A DNA stretch of 64,000 nucleotides from an uncultured Clostridia bacterium (lineage in GTDB: Bacteria > Bacillota > Clostridia > Christensenellales > Borkfalkiaceae): the NCBI GenBank assembly GCA_944367535.1, contig CALVWQ010000003.1, positions 31,474 through 95,473 of the forward strand. The letters run 5' to 3'. Shown one piece after another: positions 1,641 to 61,283 of the stretch. Numbering within the stretch: the first letter of the stretch is position 1; every line of letters begins with the position of its first letter. The translations under genes were made by a program, and so were the position numbers. The notes beneath the pieces were generated by a model. It was not told the origin of the DNA. It searched no databases and worked only from the letters and a program-made list of their open reading frames with translations.

Positions 1641-2966
1641 ATGGAAAGTTACGAGATTATGTGGAAGACGGCACTTCCCGAGCTTGAAAAAACGGTTAGT
1701 TCTATTTCGTTCGATACCTATATAACCATGCTTAAACCCGTGGATATCATAGGCGGCAAACTCGTATTACTCACCGGTAACAAACTTTTTGCGGATACCG
1801 TTTCCACGAAACTTGCGGAAAAGATTCAGGACGCTCTGAAAAAATGCAGTTCGGAGATTTCCGACTTCGAAGTGGTTGTGGGCGACGAATATAAAAGAGA
1901 AACGCTCACCGACGCGGAAAGCGTAACGGAAAATTACGGGATGCCGGTAAATCCAAACTTTACCTTCGAATCGTTTGTGGTCGGTTCTTCAAACGAGATG
2001 ATATACGCGGCGGCAAAGGCCGTCGCCGAGCACCCGGGCGACGCATATAATCCCCTGTTCATATACGGCGGCACGGGTCTCGGAAAGACTCATATCCTTA
2101 TGGCGATTGCAAATTATCTTAAAATCCATTCGCCGTCGGTAAACGTTTTATACGCTACTTGCGAACAGTTTACCAATCAGTTAATCGAGAGTATCGGAAA
2201 AGGCAAAGGCTCGCCTGCGGAGTTTCGCGAAAAGTACAGGAAAGTGGACGTGCTTCTTATAGACGACGTTCAGTTTCTCGCCAAGAAAACGGGTATACAG
2301 ACCGAATTTTTCCATACATTCAACGAACTTGTGATGCAGAATAAGCAGGTGGTACTCACATCCGACCGCCCGCCCAAGGAAATAGAGGTGTTGGAGGACA
2401 GGCTCAGAACGCGCTTTGAGGGCGGACTTCTCGCCGATGTTCAGGCGCCCGACCTCGAAACGAGAATAGCGATTTTAAGGAGAAAATCGGAGGAAAAAAA
2501 GTGCCTTATCGACATAAAAGTACTCTCCTATATCGCCGAACTCAACGACAGCGATATACGTTCTCTCATCGGGAAACTCACAAAAGTTATTTTTGCCAGC
2601 AAACTTCACGAATGTCCCATAACGATTGACCTCGTTAAAGAGGCTCTCAAAGAATCGGCGGGCGAACGCGAGGAAGAATTGCAGATGGACGACATCATAG
2701 ACTGCGTTTGCGGTTTTTACAAAGTCGCGCGCGCGGATATTTTCGGAAAGAAGAAAAACAAGGAATTTGTCGAGCCGCGACAGATTTGCGCCTATCTTAT
2801 TACGGATATGATGAACATTCCGCTTGCGAGCATAGGTGCTAAACTCGGCGGCAGAGACCACGCGACGATAATTTATGCGCGCGACAAGGTGGCGGAACTA
2901 ATAAAGACGGATGCAAAACTTCGCACCGAGATAAACGATATCAAAAAAATGCTTCTTAAAGAGTAG
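1641..2966 (+). CDS. dnaA: Chromosomal replication initiator protein DnaA
   Basis: DnaA is the AAA+ initiator that binds DnaA boxes, melts the origin and helps load the helicase. At 441 residues it has the usual four-part layout: an N-terminal interaction domain (1-80), a short linker, an AAA+ core with Walker A GGTGLGKT at 143-150 and Walker B VLLIDDVQF near 205-213, and a C-terminal DNA-binding domain ending in the family signature LGGRDHATIIYA. An AAAGGA ribosome site precedes the ATG. A TATAAT -10 element sits at 1586-1591 with a poor -35. mnmG starts 5 bases after the stop, so the two are probably co-transcribed. dnaN does not follow, which departs from the common dnaA-dnaN order. Confidence 0.97.
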   Translation: MESYEIMWKTALPELEKTVSSISFDTYITMLKPVDIIGGKLVLLTGNKLFADTVSTKLAEKIQDALKKCSSEISDFEVVVGDEYKRETLTDAESVTENYGMPVNPNFTFESFVVGSSNEMIYAAAKAVAEHPGDAYNPLFIYGGTGLGKTHILMAIANYLKIHSPSVNVLYATCEQFTNQLIESIGKGKGSPAEFREKYRKVDVLLIDDVQFLAKKTGIQTEFFHTFNELVMQNKQVVLTSDRPPKEIEVLEDRLRTRFEGGLLADVQAPDLETRIAILRRKSEEKKCLIDIKVLSYIAELNDSDIRSLIGKLTKVIFASKLHECPITIDLVKEALKESAGEREEELQMDDIIDCVCGFYKVARADIFGKKKNKEFVEPRQICAYLITDMMNIPLASIGAKLGGRDHATIIYARDKVAELIKTDAKLRTEINDIKKMLLKE

Positions 2967-4894: not shown

Positions 4895-4907
4895 AATTGT
4901 GCTTTTT

Positions 4908-5250
4908 AAGTCGGTTATACGGCCGCGGTGGCGGAGAGAAACCGCCAATGAGGAAAGTCCGAACTTCTTAGAAACAGGGTGCCGGAGAAATCCCGGTGAA
5001 GGCGACTTTAAGGAAAGTGCAACAGAAAATTACCGCCGCGCAAGCGGTAAGGTTGAAAAGGCGGGGTAAGAGCCCACCGCCCTCACGGTAACGCGAGGGG
5101 CAATGTAAACCCCACCCGAAGCAAGATTGACAAACCGTTTCATTAGGGAGTTTCACCGAGACGGTTTATAAAATATCGCTTGAGGGCGACGGAGACGTCG
5201 CTCCTAGATAAATGGCCGTACACGACAGAATTCGGCTTACAGACCGACTT
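4908..5250 (+). ncRNA. rnpB: RNase P RNA, bacterial type A
   Basis: This is the catalytic RNA that removes tRNA 5' leaders. The ends pair as helix P1: AAGTCGGT at 4908-4915 with ACCGACTT at 5243-5250. Recognisable conserved pieces are GAGGAAAGTCC near the 5' side, ACAGAAAATTA and GGGTAAGAGCCCACCG in the middle, AGCAAGATTGACAAACCG, and the 3' core GACAGAATTCGGCTTACAGA. The length (about 343 nt) fits the family. It has its own promoter and is followed directly by a strong hairpin terminator. Its place after mnmG is unusual. Confidence 0.93.
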
Positions 5251-5256
5251 AAAAAC

Positions 5257-17270: not shown

Positions 17271-17840
17271 TCATGCTTGAGAAACGTCTTTATATGAAAT
17301 GTTTAAAGGATTTTTGTTTTCAAGGTATTTTTCTATTCCTTCGGCAATTTTTTCTGCCATTTTAAATACCAAATTCAGCCTTGTTAGATTAAATAGATTA
17401 TAATTGCCTGACGTTTTTTCTGCAACAATTCCGATAATGCTTGCATCCCCTATCACACCCAGGTTTTTATCCACACCCAGCCCGGGTTTTAATCCTTTAT
17501 TTATTACCCTTATCAATCCTACGTCATCGTTGTTTCCGACGGCGGCGTCGATTGCTATAACAATCGAATCAGGATGCATTTGTTTAATATATTTTTTGGC
17601 ATATTCCACTTCTTTTGCCGTGATGGGAAAATTAAGTGTTCCATAAATATACGAATTAATGTTTTTACGTTTTAAGAGAGTGCCGACCAAGGGTCCTAAA
17701 CTGTCGCCAAGAATCATATCGCTGCCCACACAAATAAGTATAGGAAGACGGTTTTTTGAATTGCATTTTGTGAGAGCCTGACTTATACCTTCAGAGGCGT
17801 AATTGTTGAACATACTGAACGTAAAGCTTAAAGTTTCCAT
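17271..17840 (-). CDS. yyaC: YyaC-type (DUF1256) sporulation protein, germination-protease-like fold
   Basis: This 189-residue protein has the DUF1256 signature: ILICVGSDMILGDSLGPLVGTLL, VYGTLNFPITAKEVEYA-like segment, IDAAVGNNDDVGLIRVINKGLKPGLGVDKNLGVIGDASIIGIV. The family resembles the Gpr germination protease and HybD-type peptidases and is limited to spore-formers. In Bacillus subtilis yyaC lies beside spo0J/soj (parB/parA); here parS sites and parAB follow within 8 kb, so part of that neighbourhood is kept. It overlaps nothing and ends 14 bases from the convergent NERD gene. Confidence 0.88.
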   Translation of the reverse strand: METLSFTFSMFNNYASEGISQALTKCNSKNRLPILICVGSDMILGDSLGPLVGTLLKRKNINSYIYGTLNFPITAKEVEYAKKYIKQMHPDSIVIAIDAAVGNNDDVGLIRVINKGLKPGLGVDKNLGVIGDASIIGIVAEKTSGNYNLFNLTRLNLVFKMAEKIAEGIEKYLENKNPLNISYKDVSQA

Positions 17841-18034: not shown

Positions 18035-18790
18035 ATGGAAAACCTGTTGCTCATATCAAAAACAGGCGCTATAATTGATGTGGTGGCGCTATTGATAATA
18101 ATTATCTCAATATTTTTCGGCGCAAAAAATGGTTTTGTAAAAACCTTTTTCTCTGTGTTCGGAGGGCTTTTGAGTTTGCTTTTTGCAGTTTTGCTCTGTT
18201 CATCTGTGGCAAAGTTTGCGGGAAGTGAATTTGGTGCCGTAACATCTGTTGCGGAATGGATAGAAGGAGGGTTAAGAAAAATATTCGGCGAAGCGCTCAT
18301 GGATACAACCCTTTCCGAGGCGAATGAAACAGGCCTTGCGGAAGCAGGAGTCGCAACCTGGCTCCTAAAAATAATCCTTTCCATGAAAGGCTCGTCTGAA
18401 ATCCCTGTCGACACTACGCTTAATCAAATTATTTCCCCTGTTTTTGCATACTACATAATTGCAATATTGTGTGTAATTATATTATATATAATATTCAGAC
18501 TTATATTTTTTCTTATCGGAGAAATAGTATTAAGACTTCATACAATTACAATGATTAGAATAACAGATGGTGCCTTAGGCGCCATTCTCGGAATAATAAG
18601 AGGCATCGTAATTATCGATATAATTTTAATGATTATATCAGTTTTGCCGATTGGCTTTTTTCAAAGCATAGCAGTTGAAGTTGACTCTACGATTCTGACA
18701 TCATTTTTAAGCAGTTGTAATATATTCGGCTATATAATCAATACCTTATTAACCGGAAATCTTAATGATATAATTAATTTACCTGCTTAA
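18035..18790 (+). CDS. CvpA-family membrane protein
   Basis: This 251-residue integral membrane protein has about four hydrophobic segments and the CvpA entry motif: DVVALLIIIISIFFGAKNGFVKTFFSVFGGLLSLLFAVLLCSSVAKF. A second pair of membrane segments near 145-215 includes RITDGALGAILGIIRGIVIIDIIL, the conserved G-x3-G-x2-G/R stretch. CvpA proteins were named for colicin V production, but in Firmicutes their role is unclear. Ribosome-site quality is poor, with no clear GGAGG. The gene is A+T-rich in codon use and borders the gene-free parS island. Confidence 0.8.
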   Translation: MENLLLISKTGAIIDVVALLIIIISIFFGAKNGFVKTFFSVFGGLLSLLFAVLLCSSVAKFAGSEFGAVTSVAEWIEGGLRKIFGEALMDTTLSEANETGLAEAGVATWLLKIILSMKGSSEIPVDTTLNQIISPVFAYYIIAILCVIILYIIFRLIFFLIGEIVLRLHTITMIRITDGALGAILGIIRGIVIIDIILMIISVLPIGFFQSIAVEVDSTILTSFLSSCNIFGYIINTLLTGNLNDIINLPA

Positions 18791-19324
18791 AAGCAGATAA
18801 AGGGTGTCTCGTCATTAAAATTCGAGTGCTCTACCCTATTTTAATTGGCCGTTTAAGCAATTTTAACTCATAATAATGATATAAAAAATCCCATTTTAAG
18901 CCTTTCATACAGAATGAATTATTTTATCCCGGAGATTTTAATGTGTATTATTGGCATAAAAAGCACGAAATTTATTCTTTTTTTAATCAAATTGGATCTT
19001 TTTATATAAATAGGCTTTAACTTCTATTATGCCTATAATAAATATTGTATATAATATATTTTTTATATAACAAATTAGTTTTTTATTATAGTAGCATTAC
19101 ATGTTATTTTTAATCTAGACTTATAAAAATCATGTATAAAATTTATATTATTTTACAGATATTTAATTTTGTTAAAGGTTTTCAGTATAAAATCAATAAA
19201 GTAATTATTTTATATTTAAAAATCTAGTTAAAATAAATAATTTCAATCATTATTTTAGATTTTATCAGATTTATTATATCTTTTTTTAATATAAGTATAA
19301 GAATAAATAAGTTTTACAATAAAG

Positions 19325-19372
19325 AAATTCGCCATTCCATATTCATTAAATTGAACATGGGATGGCGAATTT
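19325..19372. repeat. 16-bp inverted repeat, hairpin in the island
   Basis: AAATTCGCCATTCCAT (19325-19340) pairs with 19357-19372 with one G-T wobble across a 16-base loop. It is the most G+C-rich element in that part of the island. It overlaps a 64-codon minus-strand frame (19255-19449) that I do not accept as a gene. Confidence 0.55.
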
Positions 19373-19597
19373 ATAAATTTATATACATTATATTCCTCAA
19401 ATACTATATTTTGTATAAATTTCCCCTCCTTTAATATTTTATAAAGCATCTTGAGCCTCTAAAAAATTAATCTAGCTCATTTTTATATAATTTTAAGAAA
19501 TAAATTGTTTTAGAAAAGATAAATTTTTACACTTTATATGAGACATTATCAAAGTATTGTGTTAAAATTTATTATTTCAATTTATATTTGTTTTCAG

Positions 19598-19613
19598 TGT
19601 TTCACGTGAAACA
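19598..19613. promoter_or_regulatory. parS: parS site 1 (ParB binding)
   Basis: TGTTTCACGTGAAACA is an exact match to the consensus bacterial parS. ParB loads here as a CTP-dependent clamp. It lies about 6 kb left of parB in non-coding DNA. Confidence 0.95.
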
Positions 19614-19638
19614 TTGTCCCCAAAAAACAAAACCTTAA

Positions 19639-19654
19639 TGTTTCACGTGAAACA
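19639..19654. promoter_or_regulatory. parS: parS site 2 (ParB binding)
   Basis: This is a second perfect TGTTTCACGTGAAACA, 41 bases from the first. The flanks of the two sites are mirror images, giving perfect 24-bp inverted arms at 19592-19615 and 19637-19660. Confidence 0.95.
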
Positions 19655-20409
19655 CTGAAATTATTAAATTTTATATTTATAAAAAGTTTTTCGGTATATA
19701 TCCCGTTTATCATGAGTTTATTTTTCTCTTTGAAGGCGAGCCATTAATAAATAAAATCATATAATTATATTAAAATTTCTTGTTTGAACATTTTAGTTTT
19801 TTGGTAAAAGGTACAATTCTTTAATGTTGTTTTAGTCTGAATTCAAAATAGGAATAAAATATTAAATAAAAATCAAGTTTTTATAAATACGATTTGATAT
19901 AAAATAAAGTCTAATGTGGGCTTTGTCATAAAATAATTTGATTTTCCGGCATTAAATAATAAAATATTCGTCATATTAAAAATACATAAAAATTATATTC
20001 ACAAAAAAGAAAATATCCATTTATGATAATTTATTTGGCTATCTATCTATAAATTTTGAATAATTTACAGCCTTATAAATAACTTTATTTAATGTATAAC
20101 TGAAATGTCTGTGCTTTAATGTTTTTATAATGCAAAAAGCCCATTCCGGCTATAAATAGTCCAATATAATTATTTTTTTATATATAAAGAATTATATTTG
20201 CTTATTTTTGTAATGTATAGTTAAATAAAAAATAAACTAATAAACAACTTATTCATAGCGATTTATTGGTTTATGTTTATATTGTTGAGATTATAATTCC
20301 ACTAAAATTTATGAACATTACCATTAAAAATGCATTTTTATATTTATTTGCTTCATTTTTTTATAATTCAAATATAAAATTTTTATAAATTTCTTTTTTG
20401 CCTTATATA

Positions 20410-20425
20410 TGTTTCACGTGAAACA
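20410..20425. promoter_or_regulatory. parS: parS site 3 (ParB binding)
   Basis: This is a third perfect TGTTTCACGTGAAACA, about 770 bases right of site 2, in the same gene-free island. Confidence 0.95.
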
Positions 20426-21729
20426 TTTATATGAGGTTTTAAATTGATATAATATTAAGTTTATAAAAGATAAGGTGTATTTCAACATAAAATTAAATAT
20501 ATTATTATAAAAGAAAAAATTTTAACATAAAATGATAGTAAAATCAGCTAAAAACAGCCTATTTTTTAACCGGGAAAATACGGGCCTATTCTGTCTCAGA
20601 GGCTTAAAATGGCTTTTTTATTTGTGTTTTTTTTGGAGTTTTATTTATTCTTAAAGCCATGTAATTTAATTTTTATAGAATAAAACTATAAATATGATTC
20701 ATGAGGCCAATTTATATAAGGAGGTATTTAAATTTAGTAATGTTATTTGTTTGATTTTTTGATTCACGCAATAATTCAACGTCGGATTTGCAGTAATATT
20801 AATCTAAATGCTTAATTTAAAGCATTTTTTTCAAAAAAAGGTTTATTTTTCGAACTGATAGTTAAAACAAGTTATATTTTTTTTATTTTATTAAGGATTT
20901 TATTGATAATTTATCATAGTGCTATATATATAATTTAATTAGTAATATAATTTTTTGAAGTTTTATTTAATATACTAGGTTTTTAATAATATTTATTTGA
21001 TTTTTTCTAATAGTGGAGGTAAAAGGTAATATTTGTATAAATAATGTTTAATTGATTTGATGTCATAGTGCACTTGCTTAATTATTGATAAATATATAGT
21101 TATACTATTTTTTCTATTTTGCGTCTTATTTTAAGGAGTTCCTAGTTTACTATAAAATATGGCGCATTTTTAAAGTGAATTTTTTATTAATGGTTGCCGC
21201 GGTTTAATTTTAATTTTATGCGTTATAGTATTGGCTGGATAGATTATTGCTATATTCATTTAAGAATTGTCATATTTTAATCCTAAAATTATCAATATTT
21301 TATAGTTTAATATTATAGTGCACTTATTTGTAAACCAACAGAATATTATAAAATGCAAAAAATTTATTCCAGTATAACTAAAATGATTATTTTTTCTTAT
21401 ATAAAATATGATGAAAGTGCTTCTTTGGGTTTTTGTATATAATTTTTTGTTATTTCATTTTTGCGTTATCAGAGTTTTTAATTTTGTTATTATATTTTTA
21501 TAAATTAAGTTTTTATGAAATTATTCTATTATTTAATCTAAACGCTTTTAGCATTATTTTTTTATTTTAATGCACTTTTTTATATACATGCAATATATTG
21601 CTATATATTTGTTTTTTATTTTAGTTTGATTTTTTGTTTTTTCGTAAAAATATATGAATTATATTTGAATGTTTGTTTTGACGAATCTGCCAAGGAAAAA
21701 TTCTTATATTAACAAAGTTTTGATATTTT

Positions 21730-22090
21730 TTCAAATATTGTTTTTGTAAATTAAACAGTTTTTTAAAAATCAGAGGTATATAAACAAAAGAAATTAAGAA
21801 TTAAGACATATTTTGCTCGCGATGGAAAGATAGAAAGAGTTTTATTGTATAAAACTTGATGGGGTGGTAAAATTATATTTTATTGATTTTATTTATGTAA
21901 ATTGCTTTAATGTTAAAAATTTCTAAATTTATTTACAAATATTATTTTGCAAATTAAATTGTTCTTCAAAAATCAGGGGTGCATAAGCAAAAGTAATTGA
22001 TAATTAGACATATTTTACCAGTGATGGAAAATTGCAAACGGATTTTTATAATTAAATTTGAAGTGGTGACAAGATAGTTTTTTGGCGCTA
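21730..22090. repeat. Two degenerate ~150-base direct repeats
   Basis: Segments starting near 21734 and 21946 share an ordered series of matches: AAATATT(G/A)TTTT, then (G/C)AAATTAAA, AAAAATCAG(A/G)GGT, CAAAAG, AATTA(A)GACATATTTT, GATGGAAA and (T/A)GGGGTGG or AGTGGTGA. The spacing of matches is kept over about 150 bases, so these are old tandem copies, not chance AT similarity. Confidence 0.6.
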
Positions 22091-22366
22091 AGTTTTGATA
22101 TTTTAACAATTAAATCGTAAAAAGCGATACTATTTTAATTACAGGTTTTTAGGTATTAAACAGTTTGATAATTTATTGGTTTACATTCATTAAACCCTGA
22201 TTCAACAGATGAGCGGCGTATGGCCCGAAATGCGCTCGATTTTAATGTGTGCGGTTTCCGCGCCGCGAGCCTTTCGCACGCACGGTTTGACAAATTAATA
22301 TAAAGTTCCGCATAGGAATTAATTTTAATATATAAATGCTTATGGATAAAAAGTTTTGAAATAATA

Positions 22367-22395
22367 TTGTATTTTTCTTTATAATGTAGTATAAT
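22367..22395 (+). promoter_or_regulatory. Promoter of ftsH
   Basis: TTGTAT at 22367-22372 and TATAAT at 22390-22395 are 17 bases apart, leaving a leader of about 120 nt before the ftsH start at 22524. A TTGACA also occurs at 22288-22293, but without a well-placed -10. Confidence 0.6.
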
Positions 22396-22523
22396 AATTA
22401 AAGATATACCTTAAAATCTGTTGGACAGTAGATAATTATTTTATTACCTATCTGTTTCAAGGTTTTTTCAAACTTTTTTCCATATCATTTATTTATAGTT
22501 TTTACAAGGAGATTTTTTTCAAG

Positions 22524-24737
22524 TTGAGCAAACAGTCAAAAACAATATGGATAGTGATTGCGGTTATAGTTATAGCCATTGCGGCACTGTCCATCGGCAC
22601 GTGTATAAATACAAATACTTCGGTGGATTTGTCTGATTTCAAAGAAGTTCTGCTTACGATGCAGGGGACGGACGGGAGCGCCGAAAAAAACGGTGAATTT
22701 AATCTTGATTCCGTTTCGGACGATAATGCAATCGAAGTAAAACTCAAAAGCGTATTTTCGGGCGCGACGAAGTTTGTTATATCGGACGTAAAATTTGACG
22801 GGTATAACATTACATTCAAAGTGTCCGTAACGGACGGCAAACAGGGTTATGTCGGATTTTCTTCTGTTTACGGAAGAACGAACATGTCGGAATATGAGGC
22901 ATTGCTCGATAATGCGGGCATAAATTATTCCTATACGGACCCCAACGCCGGTTCTATCTGGTCGTCGTTGCTGCCGCTTGTGGGTATGGTGTTGGTCGCA
23001 GTTGTGTTCTTTATTATAATGATGCAGACTCAGGGCGGAACAAAAAGCGCCATGAATTTTGCGAAGACCAATGCGCGGCTCAATCATAACATTAAGGTAA
23101 GATTTTCCGATGTGGCGGGTGCAGAGGAGGAAAAAGCCGAACTTGCGGAAGTCGTGGATTTTCTTAAAAATCCGAGGAAATTTTCCGAACTCGGCGCGAG
23201 GATACCGAAAGGCGTTCTGCTTGTAGGGCCTCCCGGAACGGGCAAAACTTTGTTTGCAAAAGCGGTTGCCGGCGAGGCGGGTGTGCCGTTCTTTTCCATA
23301 AGCGGCTCCGATTTCGTAGAAATGTTTGTAGGCGTGGGCGCTTCCCGTGTCCGCGACTTGTTTGACGCGGCAAAAAAGAGTATGCCATGTATAGTGTTTA
23401 TCGACGAAATAGACGCGGTCGGTCGTCAGCGCGGCACGGGTATGGGCGGAGGACACGACGAAAGAGAGCAGACGCTCAATCAGTTGCTGGTTCAGATGGA
23501 CGGTTTCGAAACCAATGACGGCATAATCGTCATGGCGGCGACGAACCGTGCGGATATACTCGACCCGGCGCTTTTGCGTCCCGGAAGATTTGACCGTCAG
23601 ATTTTCGTCAATATTCCCGACGTTAAAGGCAGAGAGGCTATTCTCAAAGTTCACGCCAGAAATAAACCGCTCGCTCCCGACGTTAATTTTAAGACAGTTG
23701 CGAGAATGACAAGCGGATTTTCGGGTGCGGACCTCGAAAACCTTCTTAATGAAGCGGCGATTCTCGCAGCAAGAGCCAACAGACATTCTATAAACAACAA
23801 GGACTTGTATGAGGGAATAAACAAGGTTCTTCTCGGACCGCAGAAAAAGAGCCGGCTTGTTACCGAAACCGACAAGCGCATTACGGCATATCATGAATCG
23901 GGTCACGCCATACTTGCAAGGCTTCTTCCCAATTGCGACCCCGTTCACGAAGTTTCCATTATACCGCGCGGGCAGGCGGCCGGGTATACGATGACCCGTC
24001 CCGATAACGACGACAATCACCTTACCAAGGCTAAACTGTTGGACGATATAGTAATGACACTCGGCGGCCGGGTGGCTGAAGAACTTATAATCAAGGATAT
24101 TTCGGCGGGTGCGTCGGGAGACATACAGATGGTCAGTAAGCGCGCAAGGCTTATGGTTACCGAATGGGGTATGAGCGAAAAAGTAGGACCTATCTCGTAT
24201 GCTTCGGATAAGGAAATATTTATCGGGCGCGACATGGCTTCTCACGTTACTTACAGCGAAGAGACCGCGGCTATTATCGACGAGGAAGTAAGGAGTATTA
24301 TAGAAAATTCTCTTGCAAAAGCAAGAAAATTGCTTTCGACAAACAAAAAACTCCTCGACAACATGGCTAGGCTGCTTATAGAACGGGAAACAATTTTTAC
24401 CGAAGAAGTCGATATGCTTATGGAAGGAAAGAGCGTTGAGGAAATTATGCGGTTTATGGACGATAACGAGAGCAAACTTTCCGAAAATCCTTTCGAAAGA
24501 AGGTCTAATCCCGTAATTATTAAGGATAAGCCTGCGAATAAAGAGAATGAAAAAGAACAAGAAGAAAAATCAGTCGGAGAAGGAGCGGAGGTAGACAAAG
24601 GTGAAAAATCCGATTCCGCCGAAAGCGTAAAGAATAAAAAAGAGAAAAATAACGGCGACGGAAAAGACAAGAAAGACGGAGACGCCCTAAAAGATGAGAA
24701 AACCGAAGACAATACGCCGTCGGACTCCGAAAAATAA
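22524..24737 (+). CDS. ftsH: ATP-dependent zinc metalloprotease FtsH
   Basis: FtsH is a membrane-anchored AAA+ protease degrading misfolded membrane proteins and regulators. The first membrane segment is residues ~7-29, followed by an extracytoplasmic domain and a second segment (~153-173, [21 protein letters not shown]). The AAA module has Walker A GPPGTGKT at 235-242, Walker [16 protein letters not shown] and the SRH ([21 protein letters not shown]). The zinc site is HESGH at 457-461. The C-terminal ~85 residues form an unusually long Lys/Glu/Asp-rich tail, likely disordered. The start is a TTG at 22524, with AAGGAG 12 bases upstream. A GC-rich hairpin follows the stop. Confidence 0.97.
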
Positions 24738-24785: not shown

Positions 24786-25172
24786 AGAGCGATAAGAGTT
24801 TCTTAGAAAAAGTTAAGATATTTGAGACAGGGTGAGAAGCAGAAAACGCATAAAGCGTGTTATGTGTCTGTTGCACCCGAGATTTTATGGGTCAGAACAT
24901 ATACGCGGGACGATATAATGTAATAATTTTTTCGGGAACTCATCGTGGTATTGTCGTAAAATTTTTTTAATGAGCGGCGTGAAATTTGCCGAATTAAAGA
25001 TTACTTAATGTAAATTAAAAATTGACCAGAAAAAGTTACGTTTAGGATAAACATATAGTATAAACGGTTAAAAGATTTAAGCGATATTACGGGCGTAAAG
25101 ATTAAAAAAGGAAAAAAAGCATATAATCGGGCAGGGCGTTTGAACCTCCCAAGGCTTGCGAGAGGAGATACA
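24786..25172 (+). other. Leader region of parA with a nested stem-loop
   Basis: No gene is supported here. At 24830-24878 a nested hairpin is possible: GGGTG/CACCC outside, CAGA/TCTG in the middle and ACGC-ATAAA-GCGT at the tip. The rest is A+T-rich up to the GAGGAG ribosome site of parA. The frame from 25140 adds 11 codons to ParA but lacks a ribosome site. Confidence 0.35.
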
Positions 25173-25958
25173 ATGGGGAAAATAATTGCTTTTTCCAATC
25201 AAAAAGGCGGTGTGGGTAAGACCACGACTTGCGTAAATCTTTCGGCATATCTTGCCGATAAGGGATATAAATGTCTGATTGTCGACCTTGATCCGCAGGG
25301 AAATGCCACGAGCGGTCTCGGTTTTTCGAAGAGCGAAGTAAAAAACTCGGTGTATAACGTTATGATAGACGATATGCCAGTTGCGGACGCGGTAGTTAAA
25401 ACCTGTGTAAAGAACCTTGACTTGTTGCCTTCGAATATAGATCTTGCGGGCGCGGAAGTCGAACTTGTATACATAAAAGATCGTGAACATGTTTTGAAAC
25501 GTATTCTTGAACGCGCGAGAGGCAGTTATGATTTTATCACCATTGACTGTCCGCCGTCGTTGGGGTTGCTGACTATAAACGCGCTTGCCGCGGCGGATAC
25601 CGTAATAATTCCCATTCAAAGCGAATATTATGCTCTTGAGGGACTGAGCCAACTGATGAATACCATAAGGCTTGTCGTGAAGCATCTGAATCCGTCGCTC
25701 AAAATAGAGGGCGTCGTACTTACCATGAATGATAATCGCGCAATAATCTCTAAACAAATTTCTGCCGAGATACGCAAATTTTTCGGGAAGCGAGTATATG
25801 ATACCGTTATACCCAGAAACATCAGACTTGCCGAGGCGCCAAGTCACGGCGTACCGATAATGTTGCATGATACGCGCTGTTCGGGCGCGAAAGCATATCT
25901 TGCGTTTACCGATGAATTCTTGTCAAAACAACCCGCTAAAACCAAAAGCAATAAATAG
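25173..25958 (+). CDS. parA: Chromosome partitioning ATPase ParA (Soj)
   Basis: This deviant Walker-type ATPase drives origin segregation with ParB and, in Bacillus, modulates DnaA. It is 261 residues from the ATG at 25173, which has GAGGAG upstream; a longer frame to 25140 is less likely. The deviant Walker A KGGVGKTT is at residues 11-18, followed by IVDLDPQGNATSGLG (Walker A'), YDFITIDCPPSLGLLTINAL (Walker B) and IPIQSEYYALEGLSQL. parB begins 32 bases downstream, and parS sites lie in the island upstream of ftsH. Confidence 0.96.
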   Translation: MGKIIAFSNQKGGVGKTTTCVNLSAYLADKGYKCLIVDLDPQGNATSGLGFSKSEVKNSVYNVMIDDMPVADAVVKTCVKNLDLLPSNIDLAGAEVELVYIKDREHVLKRILERARGSYDFITIDCPPSLGLLTINALAAADTVIIPIQSEYYALEGLSQLMNTIRLVVKHLNPSLKIEGVVLTMNDNRAIISKQISAEIRKFFGKRVYDTVIPRNIRLAEAPSHGVPIMLHDTRCSGAKAYLAFTDEFLSKQPAKTKSNK

Positions 25959-25990: not shown

Positions 25991-26902
25991 ATGAAAAATA
26001 ACAGAGGATTGGGGAAAGGACTGTCGGCTCTGTTCTCGGAGACCGAAGAAGATTACGGGAAAAGCTTGCTGTTCGATGAAACTGAACCGCAGAAAGACGG
26101 GAAGGGTGTCACCGAAATAGCGGTAGATTCGGTTTTTGCGAATCCTAATCAGCCGCGCAAAGCGTTTGACGAAACGGCGTTAAAAGAACTTGCCGATTCC
26201 ATAGAACGGCACGGGGTTATAATGCCTATAATCGTCAACGACAACGGCGACGGAAGATATATGATAATCGCCGGAGAACGAAGATTCCGCGCCAGCAAGA
26301 TTGCGGGACTTACAAAGATTCCCGTGATTGTAAAAAATTATTCCGAGCGTCAGATTAAAGAAATTTCGCTTATCGAGAACTTGCAAAGAGAGGACTTAAA
26401 TCCCATCGAGGCGGCTAATGCCATGAAGTCTTTGATGAATGATTACGGTCTTACGCAGGAAGACCTCGCGGACAGAATAGGCAAATCGCGGTCGGCGATA
26501 GCCAATACTTTGAGGCTTTTAAGTCTTTCGCCGGAAGTGACGAGACTGGTGGAGAGAGGAGACCTTTCGGCGGGGCATGCCCGTGCGCTTGTGTCTGTAC
26601 CCGATTATGACCAAAAAGTTCTTGCCGATACTGCCATAAAAGAAGGAATGTCGGTTCGTGATGTGGAAAAACTCGTCAAAGATTATTTCACTCCGCCCGA
26701 AGATCGCAAGAAAAAGAAAGAACGTCCCGAACTTTCCGCCGAACTTAAAGAACTTATCACAGATATGCAGCGTATTCTTGGGACAAAGGTTAACGCAATT
26801 GGTAACGATAACAAGGGGAGAATTTATATAGATTACTATACCCGCGATGACCTTGACAGATTAGGAGAACTGTTAGAATTTCTGAAAAACAGAAAACAGT
26901 GA
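25991..26902 (+). CDS. parB: Chromosome partitioning protein ParB (Spo0J)
   Basis: ParB is a parS-binding CTPase clamp that spreads from parS and recruits SMC. Its 303 residues are usual. The N-terminal ParA-interaction peptide (NRGLGKGLSALFSE) is present. The CTP-binding ParB/Srx domain has NPNQPRKAFDE, GRYMIIAGERRFRAS and EISLIENLQREDLNPIEAA. The HTH (LTQEDLADRIGKSRSAIANTLRLL) and a C-terminal dimerisation segment follow. It is downstream of parA in one unit, and the three perfect parS sites in this window are its expected targets. Confidence 0.97.
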   Translation: MKNNRGLGKGLSALFSETEEDYGKSLLFDETEPQKDGKGVTEIAVDSVFANPNQPRKAFDETALKELADSIERHGVIMPIIVNDNGDGRYMIIAGERRFRASKIAGLTKIPVIVKNYSERQIKEISLIENLQREDLNPIEAANAMKSLMNDYGLTQEDLADRIGKSRSAIANTLRLLSLSPEVTRLVERGDLSAGHARALVSVPDYDQKVLADTAIKEGMSVRDVEKLVKDYFTPPEDRKKKKERPELSAELKELITDMQRILGTKVNAIGNDNKGRIYIDYYTRDDLDRLGELLEFLKNRKQ

Positions 26903-61151: not shown

Positions 61152-61170
61152 ATAACCGTAATTTAGATTC

Positions 61171-61236
61171 ACCGATATAAGTTCGTATAAATGGCACGAA
61201 CGTTTCTACCGCATCGCCACAGACGCGACTATTGGT
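61171..61236 (+). promoter_or_regulatory. Purine (guanine-type) riboswitch aptamer
   Basis: The three-way junction is visible. P1 is ACCGATA (61171-61177) with TATTGGT (61230-61236), P2 is GTTCGT with ACGAAC, and the core is GTTTCTACC. The P3 loop contains GCCA, which can kiss TGGC in the P2 loop. The specificity base aligning with position 74 in GACTAT is C, as in guanine/hypoxanthine switches rather than U as in adenine switches. It precedes xpt. Confidence 0.9.
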
Positions 61237-61283
61237 AATAAGGATAAGACGGGGAAAATTTTCCGTCGATATTCGGACAGCGG

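Follow-up and report, generated by a model that had tools for sequence, protein, structure and literature searches.

Chromosomal ParABS systems, as exemplified by Bacillus subtilis and Caulobacter, comprise canonical parS sites and the proteins ParA and Spo0J/ParB encoded nearby, tens of kb from the replication origin. In Caulobacter, the distance from the origin to the parS cluster is approximately 8 kb, and the region covered by ParB is approximately 10 kb (PMC5815017). The locus described here is contained in a window of 64,000 nucleotides, the whole stretch that was analysed, from an uncultured Clostridia bacterium of the family Borkfalkiaceae (assembly GCA_944367535.1, contig CALVWQ010000003.1, positions 31,474 to 95,473); coordinates refer to this window, or to the whole contig where preceded by C3. 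The locus shares the above features with chromosomal ParABS systems but differs from them in two respects: a single large spacer without genes, upstream of ftsH (hereafter the island, 18791-22501), contains all of its parS sites, and a second conserved element, a dyad, accompanies parS. Given canonical parS sites, parA and parB at a distance of 2.6 kb on the downstream side and a position that is retained across the genus, we consider it quite probable that the island is a chromosomal ParABS centromere with a second conserved dyad element.

The three parS sites were identified by pattern search on the forward strand at 19598-19613, 19639-19654 and 20410-20425, and all are exact copies of TGTTTCACGTGAAACA. 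The first two together form a perfect 24-nt inverted repeat with 21 nt between them, at 19592-19660. No further parS is present in the window at up to three mismatches, and none of 100 shuffled sequences contains three exact sites. In the whole assembly (1,898,491 bases in 55 contigs, 94% complete), these are the only sites at up to one mismatch, and the only additional match at up to two mismatches is a single 2-mismatch site on contig C11; the claim of the original prediction that all parS palindromes fall in the island is therefore confirmed for both the window and the assembly. In the genus, neighboring parS sites are often 28-44 bp apart, a spacing that may reflect helical phasing.

The genes parA (25140-25958, forward strand, with a likelier start at a downstream ATG near 25,173) and parB (25991-26902, forward strand) are, as had been proposed, close to the island but not adjacent to it, since ftsH (22524-24737, forward strand) intervenes. 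Pfam assigns ParA to AAA_31 (2.3e-72) and ParB to ParB_N (4e-32) and HTH_ParB (4.9e-37), and ParB, a member of the Spo0J/ParB family with a GERRFRA box, matches the Spo0J structure 1vz0 with an E-value of 1.8e-54. The closest named relatives, as judged by ParB, are uncultured bins of Clostridia type; the sample names of many of these refer to animal gut, and one is filed as Christensenella sp. UBA1259. The remoter matches, at 39-45% identity, include Oscillospiraceae and Dialister.

The island, delimited by open reading frame (ORF) and G+C scans of the interval from cvpA to ftsH, is the longest stretch of the 95-kb contig without an ORF of at least 100 aa (3,711 bp, with 1,039 bp for the runner-up). 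The longest ORF within it encodes 64 aa, and 100 Markov shuffles give a median of 62.5 aa. The G+C content in 1-kb steps is 0.19-0.24 in the island versus 0.30-0.55 in the other steps, and that of the island spacer is 0.214, so both the lack of a credible gene and the far higher A+T content hold as predicted. A hidden protein gene was rejected by searching 45 stop-free stretches of at least 30 aa against the spacers of relatives: the matching stretches (E 0.01) cover just parS, the dyad or ftsH-proximal DNA, with the single exception of a weak low-complexity match (E 0.008). The island contains neither a tRNA nor, at gathering score, any Rfam family, and three sub-threshold microRNA-family matches obtained with lax settings are read as chance.

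The locus is conserved across the genus, as revealed by stretches of related genomes taken around parS or ftsH. Of the 44 genomes that represent the genus, 40 contain parS at up to one mismatch, with one to four sites per genome, and the conserved gene order is yyaC-cvpA-[parS]-ftsH-parA-parB. In the window, the corresponding left neighbors are a yyaC-like gene (DUF1256; 17271-17840, reverse strand) and cvpA (Colicin V production family; 18035-18790, forward strand). The spacer upstream of ftsH was delimited at 33 of the 34 loci tried, the window included (in G037, the parS contig is without ftsH). Its left neighbor is cvpA in 18 and yyaC in 13 of the 33; of the two exceptions, G001 has gltX at this place and G026 an unnamed ORF that lies next to cvpA. 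The genes parA and parB usually come next after ftsH. The G+C content of the spacer is 0.18-0.32 (0.37 for G043 as a whole) and is below that of its own locus in all 33 cases. Comparison of the same interval in relatives, which the original prediction had suggested as a check, thus yields a parS-bearing, A+T-rich spacer at a conserved position across the genus, and the recovery of this locus in other assemblies of the genus makes a misassembly unlikely.

The length of the spacer is variable, at 514-3,733 bp with a median of 1,036 bp (n = 33) and with 6,378 bp in G043, the closest relative, in which ORFs occupy the ftsH-proximal part. Position, parS and A+T-richness are conserved and the 3.7-kb length is not; the island is an enlarged version, as the spacers of the 33 genomes are mostly shorter. 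Two diverged direct repeats of 90 nt, 72% identical and 203 bp apart, were found by a repeat scan at 21714-22006 (unstranded) and suggest a possible trace of island growth by duplication. Growth and drift are a more likely source of the additional length than a function that needs 3.7 kb.

The second conserved element is a dyad of approximately 95 bp, which consists of an R arm (ATTCTGTCTCAGAGCGTTAAAATGACAATTTTT), a divergent L arm and a weaker palindrome between the arms. The main copy is located at 20530-20634 on the forward strand, with its R arm at 20588-20620 and an L arm that is degenerate in this genome, and it scores 53.7 bits (E 8.6e-16) with model R1, among whose 35 sequences its own is included. 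A second, inverted copy is found on the opposite side of the parS cluster at 18871-18962 on the reverse strand (31.8 bits, E 5.9e-9), such that two copies flank all three parS sites, just as two copies flank four parS sites in G043. When 16-mers of this spacer were screened against the others, parS was recovered in 33 of 33 spacers, a site near ftsH in 19 and a site at 20,586, which belongs to the dyad, in 16.

The R arm is matched at 23 or more of its 33 positions in 31 of the 33 delimited spacers, and the best match reads toward ftsH in all 31 spacers of this genus. Contig fragments of G022, G028, G030 and G037 also bear the dyad, which brings the number of aligned genomes to 35; of the 44 genomes, 35 thus have the dyad either within the spacer that holds parS or on the same contig as parS. 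Seven further genomes are fragmentary or not resolved at the locus, and one of them, G042, has a strong model match. For each of five splits, a consensus was built from half of the genomes; of the 17 held-out spacers, 15-17 then reach 26-36 of 36, and the maximum of 850 shuffled spacers is 26. A 13-base core (up to one mismatch) occurs in 19 copies in 50,243 bp of spacer versus one in 577,428 bp of flanks. The arms are 46 bp apart, start to start, in all eight genomes in which both are closely matched, and the dyad is located 103-665 bp from the nearest parS (median 159 bp, 31 genomes). A strict pattern search of the 44 genomes gives 26 hits in 24 genomes, of which 23 are at parS and the other three at a padR-xer locus.

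Beyond the genus, the family was searched (301 genomes, E 0.01) with a sequence-only dyad model that is blind to parS. Matches are found in 98 genomes, comprising 37 in this genus and 61 outside it. One match was inspected in 29 of these 61 genomes, mostly the strongest (the second-best in G232). In 13 of the 29, from genera g6, g10 and g16, parS (up to one mismatch) lies within 0.9 kb of the dyad, and eight of these 13 loci show both yyaC and ftsH; additionally, a 2-mismatch parS is located 152 bp from the dyad of G154. At the order level (297 genomes, E 1e-5), the sole match outside the family is in G445, where both parS-like sites and a match to parB lie at a distance of 1.1-1.3 kb from the dyad.

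Several observations on the dyad weigh against the favored explanation. In the 16-mer screen, shuffles give 18-20 genomes for low-complexity words versus 16 for the dyad word, and the screen is therefore taken as a lead only. The dyad was not found in the spacers of G023 and G038, and the main copy of the window misses the strict genus pattern and was detected with another pattern. All genomes are fragmented assemblies, the E-values are rough, and G027 (contamination 5%) carries two parS-dyad contigs. In 29 of 31 main copies, all parS sites are on one side, and a two-sided boundary is therefore not general. The orientation is also not constant, in that the dyad reads away from ftsH at all eight loci of genera g10 and g16 with ftsH in view. 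Among the 29 matches inspected outside the genus, three (g2, g7) are located within 0.15 kb downstream of parB, six (g6, g7) approximately 0.35-1.1 kb upstream of an xer-type tyrosine recombinase gene, with a small ORF between the two in one case, one inside a U32 peptidase gene and five at unassigned places, two of them beside genes that look mobile. The dyad is thus strongly tied to parS, but its copies upstream of the xer-type gene, downstream of parB and inside the U32 peptidase gene show that it is not exclusive to it.

Places away from parS recur. The region upstream of the xer-type gene is a second recurrent place of the dyad, in three genera (g1, g6 and g7; loci L175, L176, L227, L232, L235, L238, L244, L245, L294 and L295), where a padR-type gene is optional. 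A dyad-like sequence is also present within the U32 peptidase coding region in five g6 genomes (L229, L233, L236, L239 and L292), and a dyad is carried by g10 contigs (L243, L291 and L303) with genes that, by eye, look mobile, methylase-like ones and others. Sequences similar to the R arm occur in the gene of a small helix-turn-helix protein, presumably RepL-like, in this genome (C3:5402-5452, L002) and in G022 (L306, 3148-3231).

As to what the dyad is, a structured RNA was rejected, given that no consensus fold is obtained and three candidate stems perform no better than column shuffles. The arms are symmetric to each other, with 73% of cells pairing versus 31-46% when one arm is slid along the other, and this pairing is no better than column shuffles, as expected of protein half-sites that are conserved independently. 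A terminator was likewise rejected: a scan of 18,600-22,700 predicts two sites versus 1.1 in shuffles, and neither falls at the dyad. We read the dyad as a putative protein-binding site that would work together with parS. A long hairpin with 28-nt arms, 82% complementary, and a 6-nt loop lies elsewhere in the island at 19318-19379.

An attractive candidate for the binding protein is a winged-helix protein of PadR type, which has a hydrophobic C-terminus and is encoded at all three off-parS hits of the genus search. At 27 padR loci, the dyad score is at least 8.8 in seven and under 8.8 in 20 (6.3 in G005), compared with a maximum of 5.4 in 71 null pieces; by eye, the hit of G011 is in rluB and that of G005 in the xer-type gene. 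Among 11 dyad-bearing genomes without a hit, a PadR protein is above the cut-off in one and below it in two, and G034 (98% complete), in which the R arm is matched at 32 of 33 positions, has no PadR match. This near-consensus dyad without PadR excludes the PadR-type protein as a general partner. The xer-type gene is the common neighbor of the second dyad place, and four g7 loci there were seen without padR; the xer-type recombinase was rejected as the partner because it offers no mechanism that explains the dyad at parS. A dif-like pattern has no match in the window.

The dyad might instead serve as the operator of a regulator that controls transcription of ftsH-parA-parB or cvpA, and have no part in segregation. 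Its location upstream of ftsH, the uniform direction of the R arm toward ftsH in this genus and the further copies upstream of the xer-type gene or downstream of parB are all consistent with such a role. A promoter-like sequence (TTGTAT-N17-TATAAT, 22367-22395, forward strand), to which we assign a promoter function by inference, is indeed present upstream of ftsH, and a similar sequence occupies the same place in some relatives, but the dyad of the window is 1.7 kb away from it. Furthermore, the dyad stays with parS where the genes do not: in G037, its neighbor is presumably a transposase-like ORF, and three g6 stretches retain the dyad and parS with none of the query genes found. Together with the reversed direction in g10 and g16, these arrangements make an operator unlikely. 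Still more doubtful is the view of the dyad as a mobile or repetitive element that came to rest near parS. Copies do exist at a small number of further loci, within genes and next to mobile-looking ones, yet 22 of the 24 genomes with hits in the genus pattern search have a single hit, the element is syntenic with its fixed 46-bp arm spacing, and the dyad is conserved amid surrounding DNA that is not. Finally, the island might be decaying or horizontally acquired DNA that holds parS by chance, to which the diverged direct repeats, the great variation in length and the extra ORFs of G043 could be attributed. The conservation of parS, the dyad and their position over the genus, and the restriction of the stop-free matches to parS, the dyad or ftsH-proximal DNA, apart from the one weak exception, render this very improbable.

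The original prediction allowed for either a centromere-like loading zone or a replication origin. The former is supported by parS, parA/parB and the conserved position, whereas the latter fails the skew test that had been proposed for it. On the contig of the window, the minimum of the cumulative GC skew is at C3 20,869, which is 85 bp upstream of dnaN (C3:20,954) and approximately 30 kb to the left of the parS sites. The minima of relatives are located 79 bp (G007, whole contig), 167 bp (G005, 177 of 217 kb) and 93 bp (G004, 149 of 209 kb) upstream of dnaN, such that the minimum is 79-167 bp upstream of dnaN in all four contigs. On the skew, the island was rejected as the main origin. Neither dnaA, at 16 kb, nor dnaN, at approximately 30 kb, is adjacent to it. 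The likely origin, as judged from the skew, is outside the window, upstream of dnaN at C3:20,527-20,953. In the 450 bp upstream of dnaN in six genomes, 14 one-mismatch DnaA sites are present versus 4.8 expected (three versus 0.85 in this genome), with an exact DnaA box in two of the six and tandem near-boxes in a third. The island contains no perfect DnaA box, as had been noted by eye and is now confirmed by search; the window has just two such boxes, at 17,467 and 50,064.

A role of the island as an origin or auxiliary initiation site, with the dyad as an initiator-binding element and the interval between dnaN and the island copied in both directions, draws on a second change of skew. The non-coding skew, pooled over the spacers of 31 genomes, changes at the dyad from -0.03 on the dnaN side to +0.19 on the ftsH side, and in four contigs, the intergenic skew from dnaN to the dyad is near zero in three (0.024, -0.017 and -0.014; 0.097 in the fourth) and is positive past the dyad in all four (0.07-0.15). 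An excess of one-mismatch DnaA sites in the spacer of the window (14 versus 7.6 expected, p 0.01) and in that of G005 (five versus 1.6, p 0.01) points in the same direction. However, the cumulative minimum is at dnaN in each of the four contigs, and at fourfold sites, the main change is also at dnaN, with no clear second step at the dyad. Over the 33 parS spacers, DnaA-box-like sites at up to one mismatch number just 112 versus 92 expected, five of them exact, and four of six spacers tested singly have no excess. Skew can also be flattened by palindromes and inversions close to an origin. Initiation at the island is, in this light, highly unlikely. As a separate observation on gene order, dnaA (1641-2966, forward strand, 16 kb from the island) lies between recF (reverse strand) and mnmG, detached from dnaN (C3:20954-22054), which is located behind rsmG approximately 11 kb away. 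Several relatives (L048, L058, L060 and L160) have the recF-dnaA-mnmG block in inverted orientation with respect to ftsH.

Within the centromere reading, several known systems offer parallels for the dyad. Nucleoid-associated proteins may form roadblocks that restrict ParB spreading, according to a review (PMC7022226). A conserved dyad that resembles a protein site, beside or around parS, would fit such a system; a difference is that most relatives have all parS sites on one side of the dyad. RacA, a DNA-membrane anchor of Bacillus subtilis, provides an example of a DNA site for a dedicated tether protein (PMC6593407); in the case of the dyad, the PadR-type protein did not prove to be a general partner. 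The center of the dyad, approximately AAATTTTTCC-N-GGAAAAATTT, recalls the binding site of Noc, whose consensus is ATTTCCCGGGAAAT, but the arms are unrelated to it, and no Noc-type site at up to three mismatches to this consensus is present in the island. The RacA binding site, too, is not known to be related in sequence to the dyad. No account of such a dyad, or of its letters, was found in open-licence full text; as far as literature searches can tell, the dyad is undescribed, and the island represents a known kind of locus in a larger form.

By analogy with known ParABS systems, the three parS sites would serve to load ParB clamps, which would then slide into the gene-free DNA on either side, and ParA would move the ParB-parS complex such that newly copied origin regions separate. 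The absence of genes would spare ParB conflict with transcription, and the gene-free DNA may thus constitute the inner zone of ParB loading and sliding. The dyad, with less certainty, may be bound by a putative protein that acts together with the ParB-parS complex. Its simplest role would be that of a roadblock that bounds ParB sliding, an option suggested by the two copies that bracket all parS sites here and in G043; a tether or an architectural site would be alternatives.

Two further features of the window are an RNase P RNA gene (class A) at 4907-5255, directly downstream of mnmG, and a purine riboswitch at 61153-61251.

For the lineage, these results correct the origin reading, in that the likely origin is upstream of dnaN and dnaA is displaced. 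Centromeres are usually described as parS alone, and a second element, kept beside parS in several genera, suggests that a partner of ParB has been missed. The dyad gives exact sites for finding this partner and offers a natural test of the limits on ParB spreading. Tentatively, and with somewhat less than even confidence, the centromeres of the family may be bipartite, composed of parS and the dyad, with a host protein that would shape or anchor the ParB complex, would also mark the xer-type locus and might be exploited by mobile elements that bear the dyad.

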